Below, piece after piece: positions 8,023 through 64,000 of a DNA stretch of 64,000 nt. The notes beneath the pieces were generated by a model, which saw nothing but the letters and a program-made list of their open reading frames with translations, was not told the origin of the DNA and did no database searches. Source of the stretch: Phycisphaerae bacterium (lineage in GTDB: Bacteria; Planctomycetota; Phycisphaerae; SM23-33); assembly GCA_009783465.1 (NCBI GenBank), contig WRDM01000004.1, forward strand, positions 35,231-99,230, in the 5' to 3' direction. The position numbers and the translations under genes are program-made. Each line of letters starts with the position of its first letter. The first letter of the stretch is position 1.

Positions 8023-10076
8023 ATACAGTCTCGTTCGGCCGCGACGACCACGGCGCGGTTGGCGGCGGTTCGGACGGCCAGTTGGGCCCTGTCGGGGTTG
8101 AGGCCGATTTCCTTGAGCATCGTGCGAACGCGCGTGACGTACGCGTGGGCCTTTCGCATCGTGGTCGGATAGCGGTCGGCGCCGGCCGGTTCGGTAACGA
8201 CGAGCACGCCGGTGGCGCCGGCTTCGATGGCGGCGAGAATCTCCGCCGGGCCAAGGCGACTGATGCTCGAGAGGTAGATTTCGGCCACGCCGGCGGGGGC
8301 GGGATCGGCCTTGCCGGTCCAACTGGCCGCGTCGGCGTGGAAACCGTTGATGAACGCGACGACTTTTTTTCCCGCGGGCAGTTTGCCGACGGCCGACTTG
8401 ACGCGGTCCCGCAGCGCGTGCGGTTCGTATCCCTTGGGCACGATGGCGTTGGCGGGGCAGGCGGCCATGCACAGGCCGCAGGCCTGGCACAAGGCCGAGT
8501 CGATGCGGGCAACGTCGGTGACCTTGGGGATGTCGAACGGGCAGACGCGGAAGCAGGTCTGGCAGGCGGCGCATTTATCGACGACGACTTCGGCGCCGCT
8601 GCCGCAGCTCATGCATCTCCGGGCCTCGGCCAGGGCGGTCGGCTCGGGGAACGTGTGTTCGAATTCGTTCCAATTTTTCGCCCGGACGTCGGCGGGTTCG
8701 GTGGGCGTGGGGTTGCGGTCGCAGCGGATGAGCTTGTCGGCGGTCTGGGCGTCGATCGTGCCGATGTAGGGCGGCGTCGCGTCGTTCAGGACGATCGGCT
8801 TGCCCGAAAGGAACATGTCGATGGCCTTGGCGGCGCGTTGGCCGCTGGCGCAGGCTTCGACGGCCGATCCGGGCGGCGTGACGATCTCGCCGGCGGCGAA
8901 AACGCCCGCAACGGCGGTCTCGTGCGTGGCCTTGTTGATGCCGAATAGCACGCGCCCGTTGGCGTCGGGTTTCACGTCGCAGCCGGCGAGGAAGCCCAAG
9001 TCCGGCATCTGCCCGATGGCGAGAATGACGGCGTCGCACGCGGCGACGGCCTGGTCGGCGTCGTCGTACGTCGGGCTGAATTTTTTCGCCTCGTCAAAGA
9101 CGCGCGTGACCTTGCGGTGCTTGAGGCCTGTGATTTTGCCACCCTTCACCACGATCTCGACGGGGCCTCGACGATGAATGAACGTCACGCCTTCGTCCTT
9201 GGCTTCGTGCTGTTCCCACCACCAGGCGGGCATTTCCTGCTCGTCTTCGAGCATCATCATCTGCACGCGGGCGCCGAGCCGAACGGCCGACCGGGCGGCG
9301 TCGACGGCGACGTTGCCGCCGCCGATCACCAGCACATTTTTGCCGATATCCAGCGGCTGATCGAACGCGACGGCTTCGAGGAATGTCAGCACAGGCAGCA
9401 CGCGCGGGTGATCCGCGCCGGGCAGCGGCAGCGTGCGGCTCTTGGCCAGGCCCGTCGTCACGAGCACGGCGGCGAACTGCTTTTGCAGGTCGGCGATCGT
9501 TTTATCCTTGCCGATCTCCACGCCGGTGACGATGGTCACGCCGTGCGCGGCGATCCAGTCGACGTCCTGCTTCACCACGTCGGCGGGCAGGCGATATTTC
9601 GGAATGGCCGTGCGGGGAATACCGCCGGCAACGGGGAATTTTTCAAACACGGTCGGGCGATAGCCCAGCTTGGCCAAATCCAATGCCGCCGCAAGCCCCG
9701 CGGGCCCCGCGCCGACGATCGCGACGGCGGCCTTGTTTTGCAGGATGGCCTTGTGAACCGGAGCGGAGGCCCCAAGCCCCTCGACCACGAACCGCTTGAC
9801 TTCGCGAATGGCGACGGCCCCTTCGACGTCGGCCCGGCGGCAGTTCTGCTCGCACGGGTGATGGCAGATTCGCCCGCAGATGCTCGCGAAGGGAATATCG
9901 CGGCGGATGATCTCGGCGGCGGCGACGAAATCGCCCGCCGCCGCGGCTTCGAGATACGCCCGCACGTCGGCATGCACGGGGCAGGCGTTCCGGCACGGCG
10001 CCCATTCGCGATCCAGCAACTCGGTCGTCCCAGTCAACTTCGCCATCGCGGCGGAGGTCAAATCAACATCCCGCAT
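8004..10076 (-). CDS. GltD-like FAD/Fe-S oxidoreductase with extra ferredoxin and C-terminal domains
   Basis: The 690-residue protein has, in order, a cysteine-rich N-terminal domain (CRNACPVHADVRAY, ICGRICHHPCEQNCRR), an FAD Rossmann motif (AIVGAGPAGLAAALDLAKLG), an NAD(P) motif (VLVIGGGNVAVDAARSAVRLG), a two-[4Fe-4S] ferredoxin module (CAACQTCFRVCPFDIP, CQACGLCMAACPANAI) and about 110 C-terminal residues weakly like an MvhD/FlpD domain. Such proteins beside metV and metF are thought to pass electrons to the methylene-THF reductase; here that is inferred from context. The start at 10076 is preceded by TTTGGAGAATTTC. The last six residues come from a hairpin repeat. Confidence 0.88.
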   Translation of the reverse strand: MRDVDLTSAAMAKLTGTTELLDREWAPCRNACPVHADVRAYLEAAAAGDFVAAAEIIRRDIPFASICGRICHHPCEQNCRRADVEGAVAIREVKRFVVEGLGASAPVHKAILQNKAAVAIVGAGPAGLAAALDLAKLGYRPTVFEKFPVAGGIPRTAIPKYRLPADVVKQDVDWIAAHGVTIVTGVEIGKDKTIADLQKQFAAVLVTTGLAKSRTLPLPGADHPRVLPVLTFLEAVAFDQPLDIGKNVLVIGGGNVAVDAARSAVRLGARVQMMMLEDEQEMPAWWWEQHEAKDEGVTFIHRRGPVEIVVKGGKITGLKHRKVTRVFDEAKKFSPTYDDADQAVAACDAVILAIGQMPDLGFLAGCDVKPDANGRVLFGINKATHETAVAGVFAAGEIVTPPGSAVEACASGQRAAKAIDMFLSGKPIVLNDATPPYIGTIDAQTADKLIRCDRNPTPTEPADVRAKNWNEFEHTFPEPTALAEARRCMSCGSGAEVVVDKCAACQTCFRVCPFDIPKVTDVARIDSALCQACGLCMAACPANAIVPKGYEPHALRDRVKSAVGKLPAGKKVVAFINGFHADAASWTGKADPAPAGVAEIYLSSISRLGPAEILAAIEAGATGVLVVTEPAGADRYPTTMRKAHAYVTRVRTMLKEIGLNPDRAQLAVRTAANRAVVVAAERDCMNSLIR

Positions 10077-58214: not shown

Positions 58215-58821
58215 AACCCACAGCTACGCGGTGGGCACCAGCGGCGACTGCAACGCGCTGGGTCGGCTGATGCGTCGCGAAGCGTGCAAACTCAAATTCG
58301 ACCAGGCCAACCATCTCTACGCCGTCACCGACGGTGCCGAATGGATCGCAAGACAGTACGCCAAACAACTGCCGCTGGAACTACACGTTCTGGACTACTA
58401 CCACCTGCAGAACCATGTGATCGCCGCCGCCCAGGCCCTCTACGGCGAAGGCACAAAACAGTCCATCGCGTGGCGGGAAGACATGATGGGCTATGTGTGG
58501 AACCGGGGCTCGCTGGTGATGCTCGACCACCTGGGCCATTACCTGCAACGCCACCGCGAGGGTCCCAAACATGAAGCCCTCCTCTCGTTACGTGACTACG
58601 TGGCCAAACGGGTGAATATGACCGACTACCCCTCGTACCGCCAGATCGGCTACGACTGCGGCTCGGGCCCGACGGAATCGTTCTGCGGCACCCTGACCCG
58701 CCGCCTCAAAGGCCGCGGCATGCACTGGGACAAGGATAATGCCGAAGCCATCATGGCCTTGGGCAGCCTCTACTACTCCAACCTGTGGAACCACTACTGG
58801 AAAAAACAACGAGCCGCCTAA
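58204..58821 (+). pseudogene. 5'-truncated transposase remnant, ISKra4-like
   Basis: The open frame (with NDKTHSYAVGTSGDCNAL before the first GTG at 58231) shows YAVTDGAEWIARQYAKQLPL, LDYYHLQNHVIAAAQALYG and DCGSGPTESFCGTLTRRLKG followed by RGMHWDKDNAEAIMALGSLY, the DDE-type pattern of ISKra4-like transposases. About half of the expected N-terminal part is missing, cut at about 58200 where the HTH gene begins. The sequence 58822-58908 may contain the old right end of the element, but no inverted repeat pair can be assigned. Confidence 0.75.
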
Positions 58822-58908: not shown

Positions 58909-60243
58909 GTGTTAAACAGTGAATCTCCAACCGTGACGACGACTTCCGCACCGCGTGGCCGAGTGGCTGCGTGGGTGCGGTTTGTTTTGGACAACTCCCT
59001 GCTCCTGCTGGCTGGGGCGGTGGCGGCGATGGTGTGGGCGAATCTTTCGCCGGCCAGTTATGCCGCGATGTTGCATGCGCCGCTGTTGGCGAATCCGTAT
59101 TTTGGCGTGGCGGTGGACGGCGCGGTGGTGTCAAGTGCGGCCGCCGATGGCGTGGTGTCGGGCGTGGTGACGGTGGGCGGTGGTGGGAAAATCATCGACC
59201 TGCACTATCTCGTCAACGACATTTTCATGGCCTTGTTTTTCGCCCTGGCAGGTCGGGAGGTTTGGCACGCGTTGTTGCCGGGCGGGCCGTTGAGTCGCGC
59301 GAAGCAGGCGGCGACGCCGATGTTGTGTGCTGTCGGGGGCATGATTGGCCCTATCGGGCTATATCTTACCGGGGTGACGGCATTCGGCCGGTGGGACGAC
59401 CTCGCGCGAGGCTGGGCGGTGCCGACGGCGACGGACATCGCCTTCAGCTATTTCGTCGCACGGCTGATTTTCGGCAAAGGCCACGCGGCCGTCGCGTTTT
59501 TGCTGCTATTGGCCATCGTGGATGACGCGCTGGGGTTGATGATCCTGGCGATTTTCTACCCGCAGGGCGAGGTCGCACCGGCCTGGCTGCTGCTAAGTGT
59601 CGCCGCGGTCGGCGTGTGTGTGCTGTTGTACACGTTGCGGCGGCGACATTTCCTGTGGTTCCTGCTGCTAGCGGGGCCGCTGTCGTGGACGGGGTTCGCG
59701 TGGGCGGGGCTGCACCCCGCGCTGGGCCTGCTGCCGATCGTCCCCATGCTGCCGCACGCGCACCTGCACACATGGCGGGCGGGCTGGAATTTCGTCACGC
59801 CCCGCGATGCCGAAAAGTTTGAAGTTTGGATGAAGCCGCCCGTCGAAATCATCCTCTGCCTCTTCGGCCTGCTCAACGCCGGCGTGCTGCTGACGGGCCC
59901 GGCGGGGCACGACCTCACCGCCGCGGGGCTGGTATTCGGTGGCCTGGTGGTGGGCAAACCGCTGGGCATCTTCCTCACGGCCCTGCTGGCAACAAAACTG
60001 GGCCTTGGCCTGGCCGCGGGCCTGCGACGGCGGGACCTGCTGGTCGTCGGCTGCGTAGCCGGCATCGGATTCACCGTCGCCATCTTCGTCGCAACCGTCG
60101 CCTTCCCCTACACGACAGACGCCAGCAAAGCCCTCCAATCCGCCGCCAAACTCGGCGCCCTGGCCTCCTTCGCGTCGGCGCTGGTCGCCTGGCTGGTCGC
60201 CCGCATCGTCGGCGTAAAACGACACGACGAGGCCACACGGTAG
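58909..60243 (+). CDS. nhaA: Na+/H+ antiporter NhaA
   Basis: The 444-residue protein has about 12 TM segments. Family signatures are the early VRFVLDNSLLLLAGAVAAMV, DLHYLVNDIFMALFFALAGREV, WAVPTATDIAFSYFVARLIF and LLLAIVDDALGLMILAIF, whose Asp pair is the sodium/proton site; a late Lys-containing MKPPVEIILCLFGLLNAGV helix is also typical. NhaA exchanges external H+ for internal Na+. The start GTG at 58909 is tentative; another GTG is at 58933. Confidence 0.93.
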   Translation: MLNSESPTVTTTSAPRGRVAAWVRFVLDNSLLLLAGAVAAMVWANLSPASYAAMLHAPLLANPYFGVAVDGAVVSSAAADGVVSGVVTVGGGGKIIDLHYLVNDIFMALFFALAGREVWHALLPGGPLSRAKQAATPMLCAVGGMIGPIGLYLTGVTAFGRWDDLARGWAVPTATDIAFSYFVARLIFGKGHAAVAFLLLLAIVDDALGLMILAIFYPQGEVAPAWLLLSVAAVGVCVLLYTLRRRHFLWFLLLAGPLSWTGFAWAGLHPALGLLPIVPMLPHAHLHTWRAGWNFVTPRDAEKFEVWMKPPVEIILCLFGLLNAGVLLTGPAGHDLTAAGLVFGGLVVGKPLGIFLTALLATKLGLGLAAGLRRRDLLVVGCVAGIGFTVAIFVATVAFPYTTDASKALQSAAKLGALASFASALVAWLVARIVGVKRHDEATR

Positions 60244-60662
60244 TGGAGAGGCGTTTCGCAAAGGCTTCTCTCGAACCCACGACCTACGCATTAAAAGTGC
60301 GTTGCCCATCACACGCAGATACAGAAAAATCAAAAACTTGCGCCCCAACAACTGAACCACTCACCGAAAAACTCACCGCCAGCGAAAAAACCGCCGAAAA
60401 ACAGGGCGAAAAACTGGTCGAAAACCTCACGGAAAAGCTCCTCGAAAAGTTCACCGAATCGCTCATCGAAAAACTCACCATCACCGAGCCACTCACCGCA
60501 CTACTGACCGCTTGGACAAACCCAACCACCCCAATCGACCCCAATCTCGCCACCATACTGACAACCTGGCCAACCCTACCCGACCCCATCAAAACCGCCA
60601 TCGCCACCATCGCCCAAACAACCCCCACCACACCGACTACCTCACCCCCTGCCGCCGATTGA
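60243..60662 (+). CDS. Possible small planctomycete-type ORF spanning the tRNA fragment
   Basis: A 139-codon frame begins with the GTG that overlaps the nhaA stop. Its first 25 codons run through the tRNA-Lys fragment (LEPTTYALKVRC), a well-known kind of spurious peptide. The rest is amphipathic (EKLVENLTEKLLEKFTESLI) then LLTAWTNPTTP and ILTTWPTLPDPIKTAIATI. I recall the WPTLPxPIxxxI motif at the C-terminus of many planctomycete hypothetical proteins (not checked). It probably has its true start after the tRNA fragment, but no good start codon is visible. Confidence 0.35.
   Translation: MERRFAKASLEPTTYALKVRCPSHADTEKSKTCAPTTEPLTEKLTASEKTAEKQGEKLVENLTEKLLEKFTESLIEKLTITEPLTALLTAWTNPTTPIDPNLATILTTWPTLPDPIKTAIATIAQTTPTTPTTSPPAAD
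60270..60307 (-). other. tRNA-Lys (TTT) fragment, possible attachment-site remnant
   Basis: On the minus strand: GGGCA, a perfect anticodon stem ACGCA / TGCGT with loop CTTTTAA (anticodon TTT), variable AGGTC, T-arm half GTGGG and TTCGAG. The D-arm side and the acceptor 3' end are missing, so this is a fragment, not a gene. Partial tRNAs of this kind mark integration sites of mobile elements. Confidence 0.75.
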
Positions 60663-63576
60663 CCAATGTGCGGAGGATGGTGTCCAGAACGGTATCGAGA
60701 TTTTTGGCAACATCCTGAGCGAGGAAGCGGAGGACGAAGTAGTGGTTTTCTTGGAGTAATGCGTCTTTGCGGCGGTCACGGCGGTAGGCGGCGGGGTCGT
60801 TCAGGTGTTGGTCGCCATCGAGTTCGATAGCGAAGCGGGCCACGGGGCACAACAGATCGACTTCCATTTTGCCCCAGCCGTCGAAGGCGATGGGCAGTTC
60901 GGCGTTCAGGTGGAACAGGCCCGCTGTTTGCGGCAGGGTCGCCAACCGGCGGTATAAAAACGCCTCCGTTGCGCTGCGGGCGCGAGTCACCTCGACCGCT
61001 TCGCGGTCTCCCAAAACCGCATCAACGTTCGTCACAATTGTTTCTGGCCTGGCGGCGTGGACGAACAGGTTGGCCAGGGGCGAATCCACGCCGTCGCAGA
61101 TGAGGCGGCGGACGCTGGCGGCGTAGTCTTGTTTCCATTGTGGATCGACCGGTAACGGGACATCGGCGGGCCAGCCGGGGACGGCGCTGGCGGGGAGGTG
61201 AATGCTGTAGCCGATGGCGTCATAGCCGCGACACCGCCGGTCGAACATTCGCGAGAGCATGGGCACGTTGAGGTCGGCGTAATCATAAATGCGAACCTCC
61301 CGCTTGCGGTCGTGCAGCCGGTGCAGTCGGCCCGCGTATTGGGCGACGGTGCCGCGCCAGGAGATCGGCAGCGTCAAAAACAGCGTGTCCAATCGGGCAT
61401 CATCAAACCCTTCGCCGATGTACCGCCCCGTCGCCAGCAACACGCGAGGTTCGTCGGCGGGAATCGACGCCAGCTGGGCGGACAGGGCGGCCAATTGTTT
61501 TTTGCCCATGCCGCCGCGCAGGACAATCACATGTTGAACCTCCGGTGTTAGCCGCTCGGCCAGCCGCTCCAGATGATCGGTGCGTTCCGTGAGCACGACC
61601 GGCGAGCGGCCTTCACGAACGGCCTGCACGACATCCTGACAAATCATGCCGTTGCGAACGTTGTCGGCAATCAGATCGCCGTACAAATCCTGGAACTGCA
61701 CGCGGACATCCGGGGCCGCCTCCGTTCGCGGGAAGAAGCCCGTCGGACGGACGAAAACCGAATGGGCAAAGGGCCGGGCGAGGGCCTGGGCTTTGGCGTC
61801 AACGCGATGTCGCACCGGCCCGCACTGCATGAAGATAATCGGGTGATGGCCGTCCTTGCGGGCCACGGTGGCGGACAGGCCCGTGACGTATTTCGCCTTC
61901 GCGCGGCGTGCGACCTGTTCGAAACTCTGGGCCGACAGATGGTGGCACTCGTCAACGATGAGTTGGCCATACTCGCCGACTCGATCGTCCACGACGCCTT
62001 TGCGAACCAAACTTTGAATGACGGCGACGTCCAGCGAGCCAGTCGATTTCTTCCGGCCGCCGCCGATTCGGCCAACGGCGTTTGGATGCAAATTCAGAAA
62101 TGTCGCCAAGCGCTCTGCCCATTGTTCCAACAGTTGTCGGCGGTGCACGAGAACCAATGTGTTGACGCGGCGCTGCGCGATCAGCCATGCCGCCAGGACC
62201 GTTTTGCCGAACGCCGTCGTCGCCGACAGGACGCCCGTGTCGTGCGCCAGCATCGCTTCGGCGACGGGTTGTTGTTCAGGCCGTAATTCGCCGTGGAAGG
62301 TCACATCCAACGGCTGGCCCTGGCAACGTTCATCGCGAAGGGTGTGTCCAATTCGCAGGCCGTCCAGCAATTCCCGCACGTCGTCCAGACACCCGCGAGG
62401 CAGGCCTATGTGTTTGGGAAAATCTTCCGCACAGGCGATGACACGAGGCTTGTCGTATGTGGGCAGCCGCATCGCCTGGGCCTTGTAAAACTCGGGATTC
62501 TGAAACGCCGCCAGCCGCGTCAACCGATTGCGAAGCGGCGCGGATAAGTCAGCCTTGGCGATGTAAATTTGATCGCCCAACACCAGTTCCAGACTTTCCG
62601 GCAGCGGCCCGGCGACGGGCGGCTCCGCGTGTCGCCGCGACGGTGGCGTCGTCCAAGGCATGCCTTCGTCCTCGTCATCTTCCGGTAGTGACAGCCGCAC
62701 TCCCACAACCCGTCCCTTGCCTTCCGCCGCACGGACGACCTCCTCCGCCCGCGCCCTGCTGATCTTTTCAATCGCCGCCAGGAATGCCCATTGGTCGGAA
62801 TAGGGTGTAAAATCGGCGGCCATATCTACAAAAACACTGTTCCCAAACTCGCGAGGCCCTTTCTGCAATGGCAACGCGATCAAATTCCCGAACCCGCCTC
62901 TGGGCAGCGTGTCTTGATTGGGAAAGAACCGATCATACGAATCCAACCCAACATCAGGCCGCCGCTCCATCGTCTCAGTCAACAAGTGCGCCCCAAGTTT
63001 CCGCGCCAACACGGCGGGGATTGCCTGCTCAAAAAACATCCACACATGCCCGCCGTTCCCGCTACGCGACCGTTCCACCACAGCCGGCATCTCCGCCTGC
63101 CGACACGTCTCCAGAAACGCGGCCACATCCTCCCGCCAATTCGTTTTGTCAAAATCCGCCGCCAGAAAACAGCATGTCTCGTCCAGCAGCATCGGATAAA
63201 CACCCATGACGAAATCCCGTCCAAAACCATCGCAACCGGACAAGTGCCATCGAATCACATCATCCGTAACCGCCAAAAACCGCCGATTCACACATTCCGC
63301 ACACTTAACCGCCCGCTTGTCACACACCCCGCGAACCCACTCATTCCCACACGCCGGCGCATAACCACACTTCCCAGTTTTCCGACTCTCAAACCGCCGC
63401 GGCCACACATCCTCCCGCCCACGAAACAACGACCGAAACAACGCAATCTTCATTTCCGGCGCAGAATGGTGATTCACCCCGGCGAAACGGTGATCCACGG
63501 CAGCAGTTGGCCCGCCCAGAGGCCATTGCTCACCATCCAAAGGCGCGTTCGAGAGGTTATTGTCAGATCGTTCCAT
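60637..63576 (-). CDS. Primase-helicase-nuclease fusion protein of the TOTE conflict type
   Basis: The 979-residue protein (a GTG at 63630 adds 18) has three parts. N-terminal (to about 330): an archaeo-eukaryotic-primase-like domain with a Cys cluster (CGYAPACG, CDKRAVKCAECVNR), the acidic CCFLAADFDKTNW, SRSGNGGHVWMFF and FFPNQDTLPRGGFGNLIALP. Middle: a superfamily II helicase with VLSATTAFGKTVLAAWL (Walker A), LIVDECHHLS (DECH), VTGLSATVARKDG, VLLATGRYIGEGFD and QYAGRLHRLHD. C-terminal (from about 890): a DUF559/Vsr-like nuclease with FAIELDGDQHLNDPAAYRRD and VLRFLAQDV. This order matches TOTE conflict system proteins, inferred to act against invading DNA. Confidence 0.9.
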   Translation of the reverse strand: MERSDNNLSNAPLDGEQWPLGGPTAAVDHRFAGVNHHSAPEMKIALFRSLFRGREDVWPRRFESRKTGKCGYAPACGNEWVRGVCDKRAVKCAECVNRRFLAVTDDVIRWHLSGCDGFGRDFVMGVYPMLLDETCCFLAADFDKTNWREDVAAFLETCRQAEMPAVVERSRSGNGGHVWMFFEQAIPAVLARKLGAHLLTETMERRPDVGLDSYDRFFPNQDTLPRGGFGNLIALPLQKGPREFGNSVFVDMAADFTPYSDQWAFLAAIEKISRARAEEVVRAAEGKGRVVGVRLSLPEDDEDEGMPWTTPPSRRHAEPPVAGPLPESLELVLGDQIYIAKADLSAPLRNRLTRLAAFQNPEFYKAQAMRLPTYDKPRVIACAEDFPKHIGLPRGCLDDVRELLDGLRIGHTLRDERCQGQPLDVTFHGELRPEQQPVAEAMLAHDTGVLSATTAFGKTVLAAWLIAQRRVNTLVLVHRRQLLEQWAERLATFLNLHPNAVGRIGGGRKKSTGSLDVAVIQSLVRKGVVDDRVGEYGQLIVDECHHLSAQSFEQVARRAKAKYVTGLSATVARKDGHHPIIFMQCGPVRHRVDAKAQALARPFAHSVFVRPTGFFPRTEAAPDVRVQFQDLYGDLIADNVRNGMICQDVVQAVREGRSPVVLTERTDHLERLAERLTPEVQHVIVLRGGMGKKQLAALSAQLASIPADEPRVLLATGRYIGEGFDDARLDTLFLTLPISWRGTVAQYAGRLHRLHDRKREVRIYDYADLNVPMLSRMFDRRCRGYDAIGYSIHLPASAVPGWPADVPLPVDPQWKQDYAASVRRLICDGVDSPLANLFVHAARPETIVTNVDAVLGDREAVEVTRARSATEAFLYRRLATLPQTAGLFHLNAELPIAFDGWGKMEVDLLCPVARFAIELDGDQHLNDPAAYRRDRRKDALLQENHYFVLRFLAQDVAKNLDTVLDTILRTLVNRRQGVR

Positions 63577-63650
63577 ACGGAGATTCTGTTCGGATTCCAG
63601 TTCGAAATAATACTGCGAAATCAGGTACACGTCACGTTGTTATCGAATCT

Positions 63651-64000
63651 GACCCCCGACATTTCCATGAAAGTTTCGATGCCGGCTTGGTGCCCGATGC
63701 CGATCTGAGCGACCTCGACGAAGCCGCCATTGCCGATTACCGCCAGACCCGGGCCGAAGCCAACCCGATCGCCGAAGAGTTGCGATGGCCCGACCTCGAA
63801 CTGTTGCAGTCGTTGAAGGCGGTGCGTCGCGACCCGGCAGGGAATTGGAAACCCACGGTCGCTGGCATGTTATTGTTCGGAAAATCGGTGGCCTTGCGAC
63901 GCACGTTTCCGATGACGCGCGTGGATTACATCCGCGTCCCAGGCAGGGAGTGGATACCGCATCCAGAACGCCGTTTCGATACGGTCGAACTGCGAGCCCC
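63651..64000 (+). pseudogene. 5'-truncated AlbA/schlafen-type ATP-binding regulator, runs off the window
   Basis: The frame reads DPRHFHESFDAGLVPDADLS, DLDEAAIADYRQTRAEANPI, LELLQSLKAV, PTVAGMLLFGKSVALRRTFP and RVDYIRVPGREWI, the middle portion of COG2865-type proteins (AlbA_2 DNA-binding plus ATP-binding domain). The N-terminal AlbA_2 domain, normally about 150 residues before this point, is missing: upstream bases are the 5' end of the oppositely oriented TOTE-type gene. It is therefore probably cut by the insertion of that unit. A GTG at 63687 could start a shortened product. Confidence 0.7.

Follow-up and report, generated by a model that had tools for sequence, protein, structure and literature searches.

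A locus at the end of a Phycisphaerae contig raises the question of what a protein does when a nuclease is added to an AEP primase and a helicase, and of how its gene came to lie where it does. AEP-helicase proteins are common and are mostly annotated as just 'DEAD/DEAH box helicase'. The helicase-fused CAPP type and its non-CRISPR relatives are already known, the latter being common in mobile genetic elements and transposable elements (PMC8211822), and the AEP families described by Kazlauskas et al. are likewise encoded in mobile genetic elements (PMC5862659). Our literature search found no paper naming AEP-TOTE and no functional test of AEP-helicase proteins. As far as that search shows, what is new here is the analysis of a nuclease fusion confined to a single clade, and a passenger role of its relatives in recombinase-in-trio (RIT) elements. 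The window, by which we mean the whole 64,000-nt stretch analysed (G000:C4:35231-99230), ends where its contig ends, and the source assembly is a draft that is 70% complete. A first-pass annotation had read the locus as a TOTE-type, three-domain unit that moved in as a module between a tRNA-Lys fragment and a truncated regulator gene.

The gene and its three parts are placed as follows.
60637..63630, minus strand: fusion gene for a PrimPol (AEP), an XPB-like SF2 helicase and a Vsr/DUF559-type nuclease (ORF and Pfam).
62740..63450, minus strand: AEP primase-polymerase domain with a Cys cluster, residues 61-297 (Pfam AEP-TOTE, 7nqd).
61183..62598, minus strand: XPB-like part, residues 345-816 (6p4f, 7egb, Pfam ResIII).
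60649..60981, minus strand: Vsr/DUF559-type nuclease domain, residues about 884-994 (Pfam DUF559, 3hrl, I-Bth0305I, Vsr 1cw0).

From a GTG start the ORF encodes 997 aa; an alternative ATG at 63576 corresponds to residue 19, and the homologues have possible starts approximately 12-25 residues ahead of a shared LFRSLF motif. The N-terminal stretch of approximately 44 residues is predicted to be disordered (pLDDT about 26). A Pfam search with the 997-aa protein gave AEP-TOTE (PF22548, E 9.8e-95, above the cut-off, residues 61-297), ResIII (5.3e-20, residues 448-590) and DUF559 (1.9e-10, residues 921-989), and the helicase motifs TAFGKT, DECHH, SAT and QYAGRLHR can be read between the outer domains. 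Across 39 fused homologues the AEP residues D159, D161, S190, H195, D233 and D240, the Walker A GKT and motif VI residues, and the nuclease residues E923, D925, E936, D938, H942 and D952 are all invariant, and a second alignment of 48 sequences also underlies the conservation of the motifs. The catalytic motifs of all three domains are intact, and because these residues are invariant the enzyme appears to have been kept active. A single protein would thus probably be able to prime, unwind and cut DNA.

The predicted fold agrees with the Pfam domains and bears out the three-domain fusion first proposed for this gene. An AlphaFold2 model built with 48 homologues as input reached a mean pLDDT of 78. 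In the model, the AEP part (residues 59-305) resembles the Prim-Pol domain of 7nqd, a CRISPR-associated Prim-Pol (Z 22.9, rmsd 2.5, 196 aligned, 28% identity). The best predicted-fold matches of the helicase part are XPB, XPB-Bax1 and RadD: residues 345-816 align to XPB in the holo-PIC 7egb (Z 28.0) and residues 345-801 to the XPB-Bax1-DNA complex 6p4f (Z 25.3, rmsd 4.2, 391 aligned), with residues 345-442 aligning to the N-terminal part of XPB and two RecA lobes following. When the C-terminal 182 residues were modelled alone, the nuclease came closest to the DUF559-like protein 3hrl (Z 12.9), followed by the homing endonuclease I-Bth0305I (Z 11.9), Vsr 1cw0 (Z 10.3) and AbaSI (Z 9.6), and the match to Bax1 was weaker (Z 7.5).

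These models place the protein with the non-CRISPR CAPP-helicases already published, plus an added nuclease. Like CAPP_A 'CAPP-helicase' it has a PrimPol domain, then a helicase, and a CAPP-like fold with AEP motifs, but it differs in its C-terminal Vsr/DUF559-type nuclease and in the lack of any CRISPR array at 108 homologous loci or in the window, as judged with a simple repeat detector; no cas family is among the recurrent neighbours listed. The protein also resembles archaeal XPB-Bax1 (6p4f, 6p4o, 6p66), in which an XPB-type helicase is coupled to a nuclease of the restriction-endonuclease fold, and the likeness extends to the N-terminal region of XPB that precedes the first RecA lobe. In contrast to XPB-Bax1, the nuclease of the window protein is fused in cis and is nearer to Vsr/DUF559 (Z 10-13) than to Bax1, and a PrimPol is present in addition. 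Opening, cutting and synthesis within one polypeptide would suit chromosomal DNA repair, in which an XPB-Bax1-like helicase-nuclease serves excision repair and the primase-polymerase refills the gap. The resemblance to XPB-Bax1 and RadD, with the nuclease aligning to Bax1 too, fits repair as well as it fits restriction. We nevertheless consider repair improbable, given that the family is patchy (AEP-TOTE is carried by 22 of the 150 genomes of the class), that it has no fixed site between genera, that one species has lost the gene by deletion (described below) and that no repair gene recurs as a neighbour at homologous loci.

A second question is whether the protein acts with partners. TOTE stands for TPR, OB, TBP and Effector (PMC12458937), and a TOTE effector whose TPR, OB and TBP partners lie beyond the contig end is favoured by the strong AEP-TOTE match and by a contig that stops approximately 370 bp past the gene's 5' end. 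On the side of the window locus that can be read, TPR, OB and TBP genes are absent, and neither these nor cold-shock families are among the 25 most frequent families in 272 neighbours at positions +-1 to +-3 of about 94 homologous loci. Homologues with this fused make-up are encoded as stand-alone genes, and we regard a TOTE effector as very improbable here. The likeness to TOTE conflict systems is that of the AEP domain family, whereas the window protein is a single gene without partners found. The 'TOTE-type' label is therefore dropped, since only the domain matches, and the companion suggestion that the fusion may be self-sufficient gains ground: by mechanical gene calls, no partner gene recurs at more than 7 of the 94 loci. 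The genes next to the fusion gene do agree with the mobile or defence-type neighbourhood described at first pass. Among 132 proteins at +-1 there are AbiEii (8), DUF4143/AAA_14 (4), schlafen AlbA_2 (3), Fic (2), ParE (2) and RhuM (1); these toxin-antitoxin and candidate defence families are a minority of the 132, and the figures are raw counts, not set against a genome background.

The surroundings of the gene in the window are made up of the following pieces.
58231..58821, plus strand: ISKra4-family transposase remnant, C-terminal part only.
60270..60305, minus strand: tRNA-Lys(UUU) fragment, D-stem to T-loop, 36 nt (comparison with intact tRNA-Lys).
60453..60638, plus strand: short ORF/repeat ('...DPNLATILTTWPTLPDPIK...'), one of several dispersed copies, overlapping the 3' end of the fusion gene.
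63672..64000, plus strand: 5'-truncated schlafen-type gene without AlbA_2, running off the contig end (homology to the SLFN of G012).

The tRNA-Lys fragment is real, being identical at 35 of 36 positions to the intact tRNA-Lys(UUU) of a relative, although it has no tRNA 3' end; neither ARAGORN nor Rfam detects it, and it is therefore counted as a fragment only. Its proposed role as the boundary of a module does not hold up. In the window it is followed by a repeat of approximately 200-270 bp, a short ORF ending '...DPHLAAVLTAWPTLPETVK.IV', of which this genome has seven copies, six of them at sites without the fusion gene (C3, C5, C6, C12, C14 and C27; loci L145-L150), and the same repeat occurs in 66 of the 150 genomes of the class. 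In 13 of the 28 copies whose orientation was assigned, an antisense tRNA T-loop is located no more than approximately 180 bp upstream; none has one downstream. Since the repeat occurs at gene-less sites and often has such a T-loop upstream, the tRNA-Lys fragment is better taken as belonging to the dispersed repeat than as marking the limit of a TOTE module. Neither a second copy of the fragment nor an integrase near it was found in the assembly, which is incomplete and in which the contig ends close by. An integrase tail was considered as the source of the repeat, and no integrase lies beside its copies in this genome.

On the other side, homology to schlafen begins at about 63672, corresponding to residues 171-277 of the intact 629-aa SLFN of the relative G012 (46% identity). 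The AlbA_2 domain of that protein occupies residues 31-155 and is accordingly missing from the window gene. The loss of the regulator's N-terminal domain thus stands, and the break lies approximately 90 bp from the plausible start of the fusion gene. A search of the assembly for the missing remainder of the schlafen gene returned only a different paralogue, on C46. Altogether, the window locus is a decayed mobile-type stretch. The fusion gene shows no anomaly of composition and has that of the window. Elsewhere in the window, between 51250 and 52500, G+C drops from approximately 0.65 to 0.44 within about 1 kb.

Species genomes hold at least 577 relatives, and the nuclease-fused form makes up one clade, with a single change on the tree, which indicates that the Vsr/DUF559-type nuclease was joined to the AEP-helicase once in evolution. 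Identities of 57-79% across phyla had raised the possibility of inter-phylum transfer of the fused gene, which the tree opposes: it mostly tracks phylum and requires 10 label changes, where 8 is the minimum and shuffling gives 19.4. The fusion gene is a member of an accessory family that is widespread and inherited in a patchy way. Three species of one genus have the gene at a common site, and their DNA is approximately 85% identical both in the gene and in its flanks. One of them (G126; L181, G126:C33, around 8263-8286) has lost approximately 2.37 kb inside the gene, between short direct repeat copies TTTTCTGGCGG, while its sister species keep the whole gene at the shared site; the gene is therefore dispensable and decays in place. 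Shared site and in-place decay argue against recent arrival in general and give no date for the window copy, but together with the tree and the window-like composition they leave a recent arrival as a module unsupported.

Mobility is nevertheless evident in the wider family, among relatives without the nuclease. Plasmid homologues of this kind are about 810 aa long; the plasmids inspected were not a random choice. In each of Pukyongiella, Gemmobacter and Sagittula, a unit of approximately 6.3 kb (6.29 kb) made up of the AEP-helicase gene and three tandem tyrosine recombinases is present, identical or near-identical, on two plasmids of one strain. These RIT elements (L156, L164-L169) have terminal inverted repeats of approximately 180 bp and precise ends: the ends match as inverted repeats at 178 of 180 positions in Pukyongiella and at 128-129 of 180 in Sagittula (ungapped count), and those of a Dinoroseobacter element match the same repeats at 90-92%. 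They share with known RIT elements the three tandem tyrosine recombinases, which here accompany a nuclease-less homologue on alphaproteobacterial plasmids, but differ in their length, passenger gene and long terminal repeats, given that RIT elements in the literature measure about 3.5 kb and are noted to have just a short inverted repeat (PMC3414803). On plasmid pTB1 of Sphingobium yanoikuyae (L154 2020-10289), the AEP-helicase gene overlaps tniQ by 4 bp and closes an rve-TniB-TniQ operon, taking the position of a final transposition gene. With their long inverted repeats and this closing position, the nuclease-less relatives make a role in transposition directly testable.

Such contexts suggest that the protein could be a primase-helicase accessory to the replication or transposition of integrative elements and plasmids, left behind here in a decayed element with a nuclease added. 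Three occurrences of RIT-type elements on paired plasmids, the operon on pTB1 and the mobile elements that encode the AEP families of Kazlauskas et al. point in this direction. So may an enrichment of T-loop-like sequences within 400 bp of the gene at homologous loci (12 seen against 5.7 expected; uncorrected P 0.014), which hints weakly at insertion close to tRNA genes. For the window gene itself we find service to an element possible but rather unlikely: its readable side has no recombinase or replicon, and specifically no three tandem tyrosine recombinases, the nuclease-fused members form a clade of their own, and one site is kept across three species of a genus. A combined history is also conceivable, though we hold it to be doubtful: PrimPol-XPB would be a general accessory factor by which unrelated transposition systems (recombinase-in-trio and TniB/TniQ) link their mobility with replication or repair, and the nuclease-fused clade, to which the window gene belongs, would have become a host-chromosomal restriction factor made of a single protein.

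The reading that we prefer, and to which we give about an even chance, is that the fusion is a stand-alone accessory enzyme for self-contained processing or restriction of foreign DNA. We infer both the enzymatic steps and the defence role from the domain logic, the type of neighbours and a precedent in Thermus. The XPB-like motor would load on double-stranded DNA, foreign or replicating, and open it, after which the PrimPol domain would prime and extend on the exposed strand or mark the intermediate, and the nuclease would cut the DNA, so that plasmids, incoming DNA or phage might be restricted without a partner. In Thermus, absence of the AEP primase-polymerase of ICETh2, which is encoded beside a helicase, is reported to raise transformation by 2-3 orders of magnitude (PMC7693054). 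The likeness, one of make-up, is that of an AEP primase-polymerase and a helicase on a mobile element that limit uptake of environmental DNA; the Thermus functions are on two separate genes, and no nuclease domain is mentioned in the account of them. Against restriction count the nuclease-less homologues in transposition and plasmid modules, which fit a role for the element itself, the folds shared with XPB-Bax1 and RadD, the small share of defence-type genes among adjacent neighbours, and a gene that mostly tracks phylum, unlike a freely traded defence gene. Priming, unwinding and cutting would in the fused clade reside on one partnerless polypeptide, and one gene is therefore enough to test restriction of foreign DNA by non-CRISPR CAPP-type proteins.

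As to phages, a full-length homologue was sought there and not obtained: matches in 1058 records were below 60% identity, and the best 20 cover at most 44% of the query, in the helicase part. Relatives lie on eight IMG/VR contigs. At two Akkermansiaceae loci (L069 and L099) the gene is two genes away from dnaN and dnaA and so probably close to the origin of replication.
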